DNA from: Thermoanaerobaculia bacterium | Lineage (GTDB): Bacteria; Acidobacteriota; Thermoanaerobaculia; Multivoradales; J023 | DNA: 64,000 nucleotides | Direction: 5' to 3' | Assembly: GCA_030431255.1 (NCBI GenBank) | Contig: JAUIJL010000013.1 | Coordinates: 124,001-188,000, forward strand | Shown here: positions 8,700 to 57,133 of the stretch, in pieces | Numbering within the stretch: the first letter of the stretch is position 1 | How the letters are laid out: each line of letters starts with the position of its first letter | Notes under the pieces: model-generated | Databases searched by the model: none | The model's input: the letters and a program-made list of their open reading frames with translations, nothing else | Told to the model about the DNA's origin: nothing | Made by a program: the position numbers and the translations under genes

Positions 8700-9554
8700 T
8701 CAGGGCTTCTCGATCGCCACATGGCGATTCGAACGGCCGGGACGCACAAAGCTATAGAGATCGAGACCACCCCGAATGGCCGCTTCCACCGCCAGACTCG
8801 ACGACGCGCCCACCGCCACCATGGTCGAAACCTGGGCCATCATCGCCTTTTGCACGATCTCGAAACCCGCCCGGGCGGACACCACCAAAATGCGCCCTCG
8901 CCACGGTAGATCGCCCCGTAGAAACGACTCACCGATCAGCTTGTCGACCGCGTTGTGGCGGCCCACGTCCTCCGCCAGGGCCAGCAGCTCGCCACGGCGG
9001 TCGAAGAGCGCCGCGCCGTGCAATCCACCGGTGGCGGCAAAGAGGCTCTGACGACCTTCCATTTTCTCCGGCAGAGCCTGGAGCAGCTCGGGATCCACCG
9101 GCGGCTCAGGGGCGATCTGTGGCAGCCGTTGATAGATCGCCTCGATGCGCGCCTTGCCGCACAACCCGCAGGCCGCCGCCGCCAGATACTCGCGCCGAGC
9201 ATGCTCTATCGCTTCGCGGCGGGAGGCCGCTTCCGGAGCCAGCCGCACATCCACCACATTGTCGGGGTCGTAAGCCAGGGGATCGCGGCAAATATCCACC
9301 GACACCACATCCGAGCGGCGAGCGATCACTCCCTCGGTGAAGAGAAAACCCGCGGCCAGCCGACGATCCATACCCGGTGTCCGCAGGGTCACCACCAACG
9401 ACTCGCCGTCGACCCGGATCTCGAGCGGCTCCTCGACCGCCACCACATCCTGCTCGGTTCCCTCGGACCGCTCGACCGTCACCCGGCGCAGGGCGCGAGA
9501 GGCGGGGTTTTCGTCGTGCTCGCTCACAGAGCTTTCCTCGGGCATCTCATCCAC
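8700..9554 (-). CDS. fdhD: Formate dehydrogenase accessory sulfurtransferase FdhD
   Basis: FdhD takes sulfur from a cysteine desulfurase and passes it to the bis-MGD cofactor of formate dehydrogenase. The 284-aa protein has the twin-cysteine motif CGLCGK (the sulfur-carrying cysteines), the GFLFTEGVI block, GLHGAALFD, EDVGRHNAVDKLIG and SARAGFEIVQKA, all hallmarks of the family. The GTG at 9554 lies 5 bases after the stop of the upstream kinase gene; an ATG three codons later is an alternative, and neither has a strong Shine-Dalgarno, so coupling to the kinase gene is likely. No formate dehydrogenase is in the window. FdhD does imply a molybdenum or tungsten formate dehydrogenase elsewhere, and many of these are selenoproteins, which is relevant to the TGA-containing gene at 55.9 kb. 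Confidence 0.95.
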   Translation of the reverse strand: MDEMPEESSVSEHDENPASRALRRVTVERSEGTEQDVVAVEEPLEIRVDGESLVVTLRTPGMDRRLAAGFLFTEGVIARRSDVVSVDICRDPLAYDPDNVVDVRLAPEAASRREAIEHARREYLAAAACGLCGKARIEAIYQRLPQIAPEPPVDPELLQALPEKMEGRQSLFAATGGLHGAALFDRRGELLALAEDVGRHNAVDKLIGESFLRGDLPWRGRILVVSARAGFEIVQKAMMAQVSTMVAVGASSSLAVEAAIRGGLDLYSFVRPGRSNRHVAIEKP

Positions 9555-52257: not shown

Positions 52258-52587
52258 TACTCCGTCTCCTTTCCTGATCCGCGACTTGGGGTCGCTGTCG
52301 AATTCAGCACATCAATTCTTTGACATCCCCCGGCGGACCCTTGCCGCCACCAGCCTTGACCTGCGGCCGATTCAGCGATTTTGCCCGACTCTTGGGTCGG
52401 TCGCGAAAGCGCGGCCACTAGGGACTCCGAGAAATGCTCTATCGTTCGATGCTAGCACAAACCTTTGACGCAACCATGACGCAAATAGACCCGTCGAGCC
52501 GCCGGGCCCGGCGCGACACACGCCTCCGTCTTTGTGCCAAAATTCGCGAAGGAATATCCCACCCAAAAATTGCTACGGAGACCTTCC
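52258..52587. other. Spacer between divergent TonB receptor and DUF6526 genes
   Basis: About 330 bases that must hold the two divergent promoters. The TonB receptor Shine-Dalgarno lies at its left end. I see no convincing ORF, hairpin or repeat; the GC content drops around 52430-52480. Confidence 0.5.
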
Positions 52588-53028
52588 ATGGCCGAGAGCT
52601 CCCCCCAAACCTTTGCCAACCACGGCAAATTCGTGCCCGCCTATCACTTTTTCGCGATTCCGATTCTCGGCATCTACGTGCTGTGGACCGCCTGGACGCT
52701 CATCACCGCTTTCTCTGCCGGCGCGGTCATGGACCTGCTCGTCGCCTTGGCGCTGGTGGTCATCGGCTTCTACGCCCGGGTCTTCGCCCTCAAAGCCCAG
52801 GACCGTCTGATCCGCTTGGAGGAGCTCCTGCGCATGGAAAGAGTCCTTTCCTCCGAAGCCAAGGCCTTGCTACCCCAAGTCCGTCACTCCCTTTTCGTCG
52901 CGCTGCGCTTCGCACCCGACGAAGAGCTCGAGGGTTTGGTGAAACGGGTGGCGGCCGGGGAGCTGGCGGATCGCAAGTCGATCAAGCAGGCGATTCGAAA
53001 CTGGCGACCCGACACCTTCCGCGTATAA
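52588..53028 (+). CDS. DUF6526 family small membrane protein
   Basis: A protein of 146 aa from the ATG at 52588 (GGAG 7 bases upstream); the earlier start at 52534 adds 18 residues lacking support. Two adjoining transmembrane helices (FFAIPILGIYVLWTAWTLIT and DLLVALALVVIGFYARVFAL) are followed by a cytoplasmic domain with RLIRLEELLRMERVL, LFVALRFAPDEELEGLVKRV and KSIKQAIRNWRPD, a pattern I associate with DUF6526. The function of the family is unknown. Its 3' end is followed by a series of degenerate repeats of its last codons. The orphan permease gene starts ~280 bases downstream. Confidence 0.85.
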   Translation: MAESSPQTFANHGKFVPAYHFFAIPILGIYVLWTAWTLITAFSAGAVMDLLVALALVVIGFYARVFALKAQDRLIRLEELLRMERVLSSEAKALLPQVRHSLFVALRFAPDEELEGLVKRVAAGELADRKSIKQAIRNWRPDTFRV

Positions 53029-53107
53029 GACGTCCGCGAATTAAGCCTTCCGCATGTAGGCCTTCAGCGTATAAACGCCTTCCGCTTATCAACTCCGCTC
53101 ATAAACA
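53015..53107 (+). repeat. Degenerate ~16-bp tandem repeats extending from the DUF6526 stop codon
   Basis: The last codons and stop (CCTTCCGCGTATAAG) recur in decayed form about five more times: CGTCCGCGAATTAAG, CCTTCCGCATGTAGG, CCTTCAGCGTATAAACG, CCTTCCGCTTATCAACT, CCGCTCATAAACAC. Unit length is 14-17 bases. It looks like slippage amplification of the gene's 3' end followed by drift. Confidence 0.7.
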
Positions 53108-53306
53108 CAGTGCCGTCCGCCTTCGAGAGGGTTCCGTCCCAAAAGCGGACACTCGGACGGAGGCTTGCGACGGCAGGTAGCGCTCCATCGAGGCTCATCG
53201 GCTGCCGGCCAGCCGGCCCACGCTTTGCATTCTCTGGATCTTGGGGCTCCTCCACCGAGACCCCGAGACATAGCCGTCCACCCCAGCCGACCCCGGAGCG
53301 CTTACC

Positions 53307-55760
53307 ATGCTCGATCTGCTTCAAGACTTTCGATTTGCCGCCCGAATATTGCGCAAGCGTCCCGGGGCGAGCTTGGTCATCATTCTGACCCTGGCCCTGG
53401 GCATCGGCGTCAACTCGACCTTCTTCAGCAGCTTCTACGCCATGGTCCTGCGCCCGCTGCCCTTCGAGCAACCCCAGGAGCTGGTGCAGGTCAATCGCTC
53501 GGAGCCCGCCGCCGGACGTCATTTGATCGGTGTCGCCGAAGGCACATTTCTCGATTGGAAGGTCCATCAAACGGTGTTCTCGGCGATCGGCGCTTTCACC
53601 TCGGAAAGCTTCAACCTACACGCCGCCGAGCTGCCCGAGCGGGTGGAAGGCGCTCGGGTTTCCGCGGATCTCTTCCCGGGCTTGGGGATCACCCCCGCAC
53701 AAGGACGTTTATTCACCACGGAAGAGGACCTACCCGGGGGAGCTCGGGTGGCTTTGATCTCTCACCGTCTGTGGCAGCGCAGCTTCGGCAACGACCCCGA
53801 GGTCCTCGGCCGCCACCTTGAGATCGACGGGGAGCCGTTCGAGGTCATCGGGGTGATGTCCGAAAGATTCGCGTTCCCGTTGTGGCAAGACCTATGGATC
53901 CCCCTCGGGTTGGACCCCGAGCAGGCGGAACGCGGGGCGGGCCGGCTGCAAGTGATCGGCCGGTTGGCCGAGGGCATGGATATCGTCACTGCCCAGACCG
54001 CTTTAGAAGCTTTGGCGGTCGAAGAAGCCAGAACCTACGAAGAGGTGCCGGACGGCATGTCCGTGGCGCTGCAGCCCCTGCATGACGCCTGGATGCCGCC
54101 GGTCACCCAAGTCGCGGGAGCGGTGATGCAGGGCTTGGTGACCCTGGTGCTGCTGATCGTGTGCACCAACGTCGCCAATATGGTGCTGGCTCAAGCCACC
54201 ATGCGTCGCCAGGAGCTGGCCCTGCGCGCCGCCCTCGGGGCAGGTCGACGCAGGCTGATGCGCCAAGCGGTGGTGGAAAGCACGCTGCTCGCTTTGCTCG
54301 GAGGAGCCCTCGGCCTGCTGATCGCGGCTTGGCAAGGGGATTGGGTCGAGCGCATCTCATCGGTTCCTATCCCCTATTGGCTAAGCTTTGAATTCGAGCA
54401 ATCGACGTTCCTTTTCACCCTCTTCATCACCCTAGCGGTCGGTCTCGGGGTCGGCGTTTTGCCCAGCCTGGGTGGAGGGCTGAACGAGCTTTCTGAAACC
54501 TTGAAATCGGGAGGAAGATCCGATTCCGGCAGCCAAGGCGGCGGGGCCTCGGGTGGCCGAACCCGACGCGGGTTGGTGATCGCCGAATACGCCATGGCGG
54601 TGGTGATCTTGGTGGGTGCCCTGCTGATGGTTCGCGCTTACCAACAGGTGGCCGACGCCGACCAAGGCTTCGCCGTGGACCAAAGAACCACGCTCAATGT
54701 GGCGCTGACCAGCCAAAGCTTCGACCGCTTCGAGGTCGGGCTCGACTTCATCGAGAGATCCTTGGACCGGCTCGCGGAGATGCCGGGGGTGAGGTCCGTG
54801 GCTGCGGCCGGCTCTCTACCCATCAGCCGCGACGGATATCGAAGCACCAGGGTGGACATCGAGGGCAAAGCCTTCGAAGAGCAGGAACGACCGCGGGTGA
54901 CGGTTCAAGCCGTCTCGTCAAATTATTTCGAAACCGTGGACATTCCCCAGGATCGGGGCCGCACCTTCAACCTCTCGGAGCAGCGCCAGGCATCGCCGGT
55001 CACTTTGGTCAATCAAGGTTTTGCGGAGCGTCTCTGGCCCGGAGAGGACCCCATCGGCCGCCGGCTCAAGATCGATGACGCCGGCCCTTGGCTGACCGTC
55101 ATCGGCACCGTCGGCAACGTGCGGCCCGCGGAGCAAATCGCCGGTATCGATGCCCAGCCCAAGGATCAGCTCTACCTGCCCCTCGCCTTCAGCCCAACCC
55201 ATTCCTACGACTACCTGAACCGCACTCCGTCCCTGATCGTCTCGTCGGCCACCCCGGCCGAAACCCTCGGCCCGATGCTGCGTGCCGAGCTGGCGGAAGT
55301 CGATTCCAGGGTCGCGATCTTCTCCCTCCAGCCGATGCGAAAACATCTGGAGCAACATTATTTCGCCCAGCTGATTTGGAGCCGTATGTTCTCCTTGATC
55401 GGCATGGTCGCTCTGTTGATCGCCGCGTTGGGAGCCTATGGGGTCAGCGCCTTCTCCGTCAGCCGGCGGACCCGTGAAATGGGCATTCGTCTGGCGCTCG
55501 GCGAGGCGCCCAGCGAGCTGATGACCCGGGTCGTCGCCCAAGGTTTGAAGCTGGCGGCCTATGGTTTAGGAATCGGCCTGCTCGCCGCCTGGCCCTTGGC
55601 CAACGCCATGCGCAGCCTGCTGCACGGCGTCGGTGCCGGCGACCCGCTGGTGGTCGGCGGTGTGATTTTCCTCTTGCTGCTGGTCGCCCTGGCCGCCACC
55701 TACTTCCCGGCCCGTCGGGCGGCTTCGGTCGACCCGATCCAAGCCTTGCGTCAGGACTGA
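53307..55760 (+). CDS. Orphan FtsX/MacB-type ABC transporter permease (ADOP-like)
   Basis: An 817-aa permease with two MacB-type halves. Each half has an N-terminal transmembrane helix (VIILTLALGIGVNSTFFSSF; EYAMAVVILVGALLMVRAYQ), a large periplasmic MacB_PCD domain and an FtsX core (VAGAVMQGLVTLVLLIVCTN; FSLIGMVALLIAALGAYGVS). The family hallmarks are ARILRKRPGASLVIILTLAL at the start and ARRAASVDPIQALRQD at the end, typical of duplicated orphan permeases common in Acidobacteriota. No ATPase gene adjoins it. Members are thought to act with distant ATPases or as mechanotransmission proteins. The ATG at 53307 lacks a strong Shine-Dalgarno. Confidence 0.92.
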   Translation: MLDLLQDFRFAARILRKRPGASLVIILTLALGIGVNSTFFSSFYAMVLRPLPFEQPQELVQVNRSEPAAGRHLIGVAEGTFLDWKVHQTVFSAIGAFTSESFNLHAAELPERVEGARVSADLFPGLGITPAQGRLFTTEEDLPGGARVALISHRLWQRSFGNDPEVLGRHLEIDGEPFEVIGVMSERFAFPLWQDLWIPLGLDPEQAERGAGRLQVIGRLAEGMDIVTAQTALEALAVEEARTYEEVPDGMSVALQPLHDAWMPPVTQVAGAVMQGLVTLVLLIVCTNVANMVLAQATMRRQELALRAALGAGRRRLMRQAVVESTLLALLGGALGLLIAAWQGDWVERISSVPIPYWLSFEFEQSTFLFTLFITLAVGLGVGVLPSLGGGLNELSETLKSGGRSDSGSQGGGASGGRTRRGLVIAEYAMAVVILVGALLMVRAYQQVADADQGFAVDQRTTLNVALTSQSFDRFEVGLDFIERSLDRLAEMPGVRSVAAAGSLPISRDGYRSTRVDIEGKAFEEQERPRVTVQAVSSNYFETVDIPQDRGRTFNLSEQRQASPVTLVNQGFAERLWPGEDPIGRRLKIDDAGPWLTVIGTVGNVRPAEQIAGIDAQPKDQLYLPLAFSPTHSYDYLNRTPSLIVSSATPAETLGPMLRAELAEVDSRVAIFSLQPMRKHLEQHYFAQLIWSRMFSLIGMVALLIAALGAYGVSAFSVSRRTREMGIRLALGEAPSELMTRVVAQGLKLAAYGLGIGLLAAWPLANAMRSLLHGVGAGDPLVVGGVIFLLLLVALAATYFPARRAASVDPIQALRQD

Positions 55761-55915
55761 GGCGGCTCCACAAACCTACAAAACCGCCCCAGCAGTCAGT
55801 AGAATCACTGAAAGGCCGAGAGCCGCCGCGCCCTGCCTGAGGGCTAGTCTGCCCGATCACTTTTTCCCGAAAACAACCTTCCATGGTGCATATCCATGGC
55901 CGAGGAGCCGAATTC

Positions 55916-56248
55916 ATGGCCAAAGTCGATTTCTATTATCGCCGCCCCAGTTGAAAGAGCTGCGAACGCACCCGTGAGGTGCTCGAACAAGCAGCAGCCG
56001 AAGTTTCAGAAGAACGCAACAGCCGCAAAGAGCCCCTGTCGGAAAGCGACGCCCAATCCCTGATCGACGCGGTCGAAACGGTTTGGGTCGCCAAGGGCAG
56101 GAAGGTCTTGGAGAAGGCTTCCGGAGAAACCCGAACCGACGATCTCAAGGGACCGACCGGCAACTTCCGCGCCCCCATGGTACGGATCGGCAACGACTTA
56201 TTGGTGGGTTTCAACGCCGAGGCGCTTGAGCGGCTCGTGGTGGCCTGA
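55916..56248 (+). CDS. Spx/ArsC-like thioredoxin-fold protein, candidate selenoprotein (in-frame TGA, residue 13)
   Basis: Read through one TGA, the frame gives 110 aa. The ATG at 55916 has a strong GAGGAG 8 bases upstream. The protein begins MAKVDFYYRRPS, then TGA (55952-55954), then KSCERTREVLEQ. In the ArsC/Spx family this is where the redox CxxC lies (beta-strand, CxxC, helix), so TGA replaces the first cysteine and Cys16 is kept: a UxxC motif. Downstream features also fit the family: KEPLSESDAQSLIDA, KGRKVLEKASGE, and the cis-proline region FRAPMVRIGNDLLVGFNAEA. A hairpin suited to a bacterial SECIS begins 4 bases after the TGA. Length matches the family (~110-118 aa). The likely role is a thiol/selenol reductase in the cytoplasm. 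Alternatives are a nonsense mutation of a Cys codon (TGC/TGT) or an assembly error. The shorter start at GTG 55979 would remove the active site. Confidence 0.78.
55959..55995 (+). promoter_or_regulatory. SECIS-like hairpin after the in-frame TGA
   Basis: The apical stem GCACC (55968-55972)/GGTGC (55978-55982) closes a CGTGA loop. A GA/TC pair and a lower stem GCTGC (55959-55963)/GCAGC (55991-55995) extend it across an asymmetric internal loop. The apical loop begins 19 bases after the TGA, within the spacing reported for bacterial SECIS elements, and it contains guanines. Base pairing was read by eye; no folding energy was computed. Confidence 0.5.
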
Positions 56249-56319
56249 GCGCCATCAGATGACCTGCGCGGGCTGACTGACCGCCACCAAAGTAGCAGCG
56301 CGGCCTGACCGACCGCAAT

Positions 56320-56353
56320 AAAAAGCCGGCCCCCGAAACCATTCGGAGGCCGG
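56320..56353 (-). terminator. Intrinsic terminator facing the minus strand
   Basis: The stem CCGGCC-c-CCGAA (56326-56337) pairs with TTCGG-a-GGCCGG (56342-56353) with one mismatch and an ACCA loop. On the minus strand it is followed by CTTTTTATT. No protein gene on the minus strand ends here, which implies an RNA gene or a bidirectional role. Confidence 0.75.
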
Positions 56354-56670
56354 AATCCCGGTTACCTTGGTGCACGTGGAGCACGTGCACCCCTCACCGG
56401 GAGCGTCAAGCTCCCGTGAGTTTTCGGGCCTTGCGGCCCAAAACCTTTCAAAGCTGAGACTCAATACATCGGCGCTCATTCGCTGGGTCGAATGGCGGAG
56501 ACCTCACTTCGAGGCGGCTCCCTGCCGGCGCCTTTTCCTGTGTGGGCTCAGTCCCTCACGCTCGCCATCTGCCGACGGTGCCCCTTGAGATGCGCCCCTC
56601 CGAACACGGCCGGCGGTCGAAACCGGGCCGTCCTCGTGGTCGCACCCCGAGCGGAGGGGGTTATGAAATC
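56320..56670 (-). ncRNA. Candidate structured RNA on the minus strand, class not recognised
   Basis: Read on the minus strand from ~56670, inverted repeats follow almost without gap: CCCCTCCG/CGGAGGGG closing two arms (ACGGCC.../GGCCGT with a TTCG loop, and GTG/CAC), GGAG..CCTC/GAGG..CTCC (~56498-56522), CATTCG/CGAATG (~56477-56494), GGGCC-GCAA-GGCCC (56426-56439, GNRA tetraloop), GGGAGC/GCTCCC (56399-56415), GTGCACGTG/CACGTGCAC (56370-56390) and CCGGCC..CCGAA/TTCGG..GGCCGG (56326-56353) followed by CTTTTTATT. GCAA and TTCG loops and the final U-tract all favour the minus strand. No conserved RNase P, tmRNA, SRP or known riboswitch core was found. Confidence 0.45.
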
Positions 56671-57133
56671 CACACGAGTCTCAAATAAGACATCAAACTC
56701 AAAAATACACCTCTTAAAATCTGCTCAGGGTCAAAACCGCTTCTCTCACGGCCACACCTACGGCTTGCGGAGGTGCCCTTAAGGCAACTCACCGAGAAGG
56801 GTTTTACAGCTCCCCTTGGACTCCTGTCGACTCGTTTGTCGACCGGAACATGACATCTTTCTACTTAAGCAATCCTCATGCCGGCCCTGGGCTTCGCTCG
56901 GCATTTTCTCTTGGCTCCCGATCTTGGCCGATCCCGCGGTGGGTCCGACGACCTTCAGGCATCACTTCGCTCCAATCCGAGCGGGCTCAGCGGGTAATGG
57001 CTTTCCCATTTCGGGATTAAGCGGGTATTTCGTTGCACATTCGCTGCGAGAGAAGGTGCAGAGGAGATATGTCGCTAAAGATCTCGCTTCTGGGGAGTTA
57101 AGATCTCGCCGATGGGGAGTTAAGATCTCGCCC
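56671..57133. other. Spacer upstream of the histidine kinase gene
   Basis: An AT-rich stretch (56665-56735) could hold a promoter for the minus-strand RNA candidate. An open plus-strand frame from 56816 runs into the kinase gene but its residues (SCRLVCRPEHD onward) look non-coding. GTCGAC occurs twice around 56827-56845. At the right end are 22-base direct repeats listed separately. Confidence 0.5.

Follow-up and report, generated by a model that had tools for sequence, protein, structure and literature searches.

Arsenate reductase-like proteins with a UxxC motif are already on record as predicted selenoproteins. A 2008 ocean survey reported 42 Sec and 238 Cys forms of "Arsenate reductase 2, cd03032, UxxC" (PMC2398784), and a family of arsenate reductase-like UxxC proteins is listed in a 2022 review (PMC9312934). 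A 2026 review of the prokaryotic selenoproteome has "Arsenate reductase-like protein, NF041106, UxxC", credited to the 2008 survey (PMC13188914). The parts of these three papers that list the family state no function for the NF041106-type UxxC protein. Here we describe a locus of this kind in a 64,000-nucleotide stretch of a contig (the window) from a Thermoanaerobaculia bacterium of the phylum Acidobacteriota. Its product resembles the arsenate reductase-like selenoprotein of the 2008 survey in its UxxC motif, its ArsC/Spx type, and its predicted Sec, but the survey's cd03032 group, as entered there, may consist of TIGR01617-like TGA proteins and not of the window's subgroup (PMC2398784). Because NF041106 and the entries in the reviews already list the family, the kind of protein is known, and the window gene adds a member.

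A sequence-only reading of the window had proposed a hidden selenoprotein with a UxxC thioredoxin fold. The Sec machinery of the genome, a conserved TGA, and a hairpin in relatives lend support to that proposal, and we consider it very likely that this is a bacterial selenoprotein gene of the NF041106 "ArsC family (seleno)protein" group, with the TGA as its Sec codon. What is new here is the hairpin evidence, the different position of the hairpin in a second clade, and a second ArsC-type gene with an in-frame TGA in the same genome.

Reading frame and family membership

From ATG 55916 the frame (Table 1) reads MAKVDFYYRRPS-TGA-KSCERT..., continues for 97 codons after that TGA, and takes in the block FRAPMVRIGNDLLVGF. 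The sequence-only reading had described all of this, from the GAGGAG and ATG that open the frame to the KSCERT stretch, the roughly 97 residues, and the block, and its description proved accurate. It had also warned that gene callers would report only an 89-residue part. Such an 89-residue ORF, starting at GTG 55979, is what the mechanical ORF list contains, so the active site is lost from the annotation unless the TGA is read through.

Table 1. Features of the selenoprotein locus, in positions of the window
Feature	Position	Strand	Details and basis
Shine-Dalgarno-like GAGGAG	55902..55907	+	8 nt 5' of the ATG; from sequence
Gene for 110-residue predicted selenoprotein, NF041106 family	55916..56248	+	stop codon included; frame, profile match, and relatives
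Predicted Sec codon (in-frame TGA, codon 13)	55952..55954	+	opens the U-K-S-C motif; same column in relatives
Predicted bacterial SECIS hairpin core	55968..55982	+	arms 55968-55972 and 55978-55982; loop CGTGA 55973-55977; 18 nt after TGA
Arg85-Ala86-Pro87 codons (RAP motif)	56168..56176	+	invariant in alignment of 39
Terminal stop TGA	56246..56248	+	

With Cys placed at the TGA, the read-through protein matched NF041106 at 92.0 and 92.1 bits, against a cut-off of 85, over residues 4-103. A six-frame search of the genome scored the same gene at 84.3 bits, just below that cut-off. Membership is indicated by the curated cut-off, the [U/C]xxC motif, and the RAP proline. As in other NF041106 members, the match is nearly full-length, with Sec or Cys at the motif. 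Of the members found, those scoring highest (120-135 bits) belong to a different clade and are 31-40% identical to the window protein, which stands just 7 bits above the cut-off.

The internal TGA was followed through two sets of genomes. Among 40 genomes, the window's own included, 25 have an NF041106 match, all of at least 53.7 bits; a set of 297 from the phylum gives 64 with a match, 27 at 75 bits or more and 37 at 41.1 bits or less. Each of the 25, and each of the 27 at 75 bits or more, has exactly one internal stop, and that stop is TGA. Pooling the 25 (at least 53 bits) and the 27 (at least 75 bits), of which eight are shared, leaves 44 distinct genomes, and in 44/44 the motif opens with the TGA, in the same column, as the sequence-only reading had placed it. 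The 37 weak matches (at most 41.1 bits) were excluded from this count; 28 have no stop, eight have one TGA, and one has one TAG. Twelve of the 37 were inspected and resemble other ArsC/Spx or glutaredoxin-like proteins, and three of the 28 stopless matches (L072-L074) appear by eye to be Cys-containing ArsC/Spx-like proteins. The eight weak matches with one TGA (L095-L102), from other genomes of the phylum, are Spx/ArsC-like and have the TGA at UxxC. Scanning all of them but L098 gave TIGR01617 matches of 61-91 bits for the seven, with L095, L099, L100, and L101 above its cut-off; the TIGR01617 description is silent on selenium. Because the seven scanned loci match that model, the TGA-bearing weak matches were taken as another group.

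With the window protein as query, named genome contigs yielded eight loci, namely six with TGA, one with Cys, and one (L052) that was judged by eye to be a chance match and dropped. The Cys form (L046), from an Isosphaeraceae record, has the codon TGC at the motif. Homologues checked for Cys or TGA at position 13 carry TGA throughout, with this one exception, and their frames are open on both sides. Two named Acidobacteria records (L050 and L051) and two genomes of the window's class (L069 and L070) are identical over the first 60 bases from the TGA, which fits the placement in Acidobacteriota. For alignment, 38 of 49 distinct homologue readings were combined with the window protein (39 rows); the 11 others were either the window itself or near-duplicates within a single genus. 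Tyr8, Arg10, residue 13, Gly61, Gly79, Gly82, Arg85, Ala86, Pro87, Gly92, and Gly98 are invariant in the 39 rows, and Cys16 is present in at least 90% of them. One homologue, L061, reads UTSS, with Ser replacing the resolving Cys and the TGA kept. The protein tree has two well-supported sets of 15 and 24 rows, with Sec forms in both. The Cys form falls in the window's set (clade A); its placement next to the remaining 23 rows is moderately supported (86/75).

Fold and functional class

The AlphaFold2 model (mean pLDDT 95.9) has the Spx/ArsC fold. A profile search of solved structures gave Spx as the best match (E 2.5e-9), and the seven PDB matches that Foldseek found at E <= 0.001 are all Spx-type, though their TM-scores are modest (0.56-0.61 by query, rmsd 4.6-6.9). 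By VIA-align the two types are nearly tied, at Z 9.1-10.5 for Spx entries (best 3ihq, Z 10.5, rmsd 2.1, 88 aligned) and Z 8.0-9.9 for ArsC-type entries (e.g., 1jzw, Z 8.0, rmsd 2.5, 89 aligned); NrdH- and glutaredoxin-type structures rank below Spx. The label "Spx/ArsC-like" from the sequence-only reading therefore holds for the fold, but it does not extend to either named family. The Spx/MgsR model TIGR01617 scored 21.0 and 21.1 bits, below its cut-off of 75.05, and the arsenate reductase model TIGR00014 (cut-off 106.05) was absent among the six families matched at E up to 1. In Pfam, all matches of the read-through protein were under the gathering score, ArsC (PF03960) reaching 16.2 against 24.

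These comparisons bear on an alternative that concerns only the functional half of our reading, in which the selenoprotein is an arsenate reductase or, in the manner of Spx, regulates RNA polymerase. The Spx profile match and the structural scores for both types lend it some weight, but the two family models speak against it, as do details of the sequences themselves, and we consider it unlikely. The Spx structures (1z3e, 3gfk, 3ihq, and 6ghb) share the fold but have CxxC where the window protein has UxxC. Spx also has a TEDG segment that holds Gly52, the residue which we take to contact the RNA-polymerase alpha-CTD; in alignments this segment is an insertion that the NF041106 profile skips. 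Arsenate reductases are marked by GRPP, and at its C-terminal end the window protein has VGFNAE where the other ArsC-type gene of the genome ends in VGRPPE. We therefore favour, with moderate confidence, a thiol/selenol oxidoreductase that acts on its own over either an arsenate reductase or a regulator of transcription. Such an enzyme would attack with the selenolate of Sec13, which immediately precedes helix 1, and resolve with the thiol of Cys16, and the Se-S bond formed between them would then be reduced again by thioredoxin or glutathione. The RAP proline (Pro87), presumably cis as in the fold generally, would sit beside the active site.

That other ArsC-type gene came from a TIGR01617 search of the genome, which gave one match (L104, G000:C35:501839-502102) at 55.1 bits, under the cut-off. 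It reads MLELICKSTUSTCRK..., its single in-frame TGA falling at the redox motif (KSTUSTC), and is probably another selenoprotein, nearer to the arsenate reductases.

Gene neighbourhood was considered as a functional clue and rejected, the neighbours not being conserved. Across 28 loci (the window, 20 regions, and seven contigs), two ORF groups recur, F0 in seven loci and F1 in five, both of which coincide in part with the gene wherever their positions are known. Every other ORF group is found in at most three of the 28 loci, and the neighbours give no functional pointer. The ADOP permease 5' of the gene (TIGR03434) recurs at one other locus (L089). Elsewhere in the window, positions 52534-53028 (+) encode a DUF6526 protein (PF20136, 127.3 bits), whose ORF is overlapped by a longer mechanical ORF (52434-53180) in a different frame.

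Evidence for selenocysteine at the TGA

Among 15 of the 23 clade-A sequences, the region 5' of the start diverges evenly over codon positions 1/2/3 (0.69/0.74/0.70). The 11 codons preceding the TGA diverge as coding sequence does (0.35/0.32/0.53), and so does the region of the RAP block (0.22/0.21/0.53). The pattern is weak directly after the hairpin (0.53/0.46/0.62), and divergence is lowest in the ten hairpin codons (0.04/0.14/0.26). The good coding character and unbroken frame claimed by the sequence-only reading are borne out by the signal before the TGA and by the relatives, which are open on both sides. This is also where the case for a true stop weakens. If the TGA ended translation, the product would be the 89-residue protein from GTG 55979, which the mechanical ORF list does show, or the locus would be a decaying pseudogene. 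The shorter product would have neither strand 1 nor the redox motif, and the 11 codons before the TGA show coding constraint. Decay would scatter stops and frameshifts, whereas the lone internal TGA lies at the same codon in all 44 genomes. We regard a true stop as very improbable.

The reading of the TGA as Sec finds the necessary machinery in the genome (10.19 Mb, 54 contigs, 98.83% complete). The sequence-only reading had argued that this machinery was plausible from an FdhD gene in the window, which is indeed present (PF02634, 192.3 bits, ORF 8700-9554 on the minus strand), and all four components that it named for a check of the genome are over their cut-offs. There is one tRNA-Sec (72.7 bits against the Rfam cut-off of 47; tRNA-SeC with anticodon tca by ARAGORN), together with selB (358.7 bits against a curated 242.25), selA (458.7 against 267.9), and selD (359.6 against 125). 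Among 14 control genomes, tRNA-Sec was over the cut-off in five, selB in two, selA in one, and selD in two. The selD gene of the window's genome (L018) reads KTCGUAAK through an in-frame TGA, so SelD itself looks like a selenoprotein. Across the 40 genomes, presence of the NF041106-type gene weakly tracks the machinery: 37 have a selB above the cut-off, the three without it (G019, G032, and G033) also have no NF041106-type gene, and the gene is missing from 12 of the 37 that have selB.

The predicted SECIS hairpin of the window has a 5-bp stem (GCACC/GGUGC) and the loop CGUGA, 18 nt 3' of the TGA. Rules for bacterial SECIS elements, as given in a section of the 2026 review, call for a loop of 3-9 nt with G in its first two positions, 4-16 bp in the upper stem, a spacing of 16-37 nt, and an MFE of at most -7.5 (PMC13188914), and the window hairpin agrees with the rules in that section. 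Taken alone it is unexceptional, since about half of its synonymous recodings (1019/2000) also pass, and its MFE is -14.7 against -14.1 +/- 2.5; the SECIS signal consequently rests on the relatives. The hairpin core is paired in 23/23 distinct clade-A TGA sequences. By MFE folding, 32/40 distinct TGA sequences pass the rules and 8/40 fail, while 100 synonymous recodings give 12.7 +/- 2.8 passes with a maximum of 20, with a codon table drawn from these family genes that counts their hairpin codons too. Passes number 19/23 in clade A and 13/17 in clade B, one of the latter (L055) by another hairpin; other segments of the same genes pass in 90/400 cases. The Cys homologue, folded in the same way, fails the rules and has no stem. 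An Rfam scan of positions 55000-57000 returned five matches, all far under gathering scores, with SECIS not among them.

Codon choice in the hairpin is frozen, with CGC in 19/19, ACC in 23/23, GAG in 17/17, and GTG in 23/23, against top-codon shares of 0.39-0.83 near RAP. The loop Arg codon is CGT in 15 sequences and CGG in eight, so the loop reads GU or GG. Two codons outside the stem core are nearly frozen as well, GTC (18/18) nine codons 5' of the TGA and AGC (20/21) two codons 3' of it. A sequencing or assembly error that made TGA from TGC or TGT would need only one base, but many assemblies made independently agree on the codon, and the hairpin core is paired throughout clade A and missing from the Cys form, which leaves this with almost no probability. 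In the selenoprotein reading, translation would begin at ATG 55916, SelB carrying Sec-tRNA(Sec) would bind the hairpin, with its loop 18 nt 3' of the UGA at codon 13, and Sec would be inserted to yield a thioredoxin-fold protein of 110 residues. The parts of the gene are seen in the sequence, and we infer the insertion steps from known SelB biology.

Evolution of the family and its wider meaning

The hairpin differs between the two clades. In clade A, the window's, a GU/GG loop lies 18 nt past the TGA and caps a 5-bp stem located at the RTRxV codons. In clade B, 12/17 distinct sequences have by MFE a GUU-type loop 22-23 nt past the TGA, on a 7-9-bp stem at other codons, and one clade-B member (G005) belongs to the window's own bacterial family. 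For the Cys form, one Sec-to-Cys change is the simplest reading. We had weakly expected its genome to have lost the machinery, and this expectation failed; because that genome keeps tRNA-Sec and selB, the Cys is not explained by machinery loss. Whether the SECIS element shifted within the family around a fixed Sec codon, in proteins that would be autonomous selenol oxidoreductases distinct from Spx and arsenate reductase, is in our estimate an evenly balanced question.

For annotation, reading through the TGA corrects a gene that is otherwise cut to 89 residues with its active site missing. Frozen synonymous codons, set against a gene that varies more freely, offer a test for SECIS elements that needs nothing beyond sequence. 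For the family, the loci described here would add members to a predicted selenoprotein family within Acidobacteriota.
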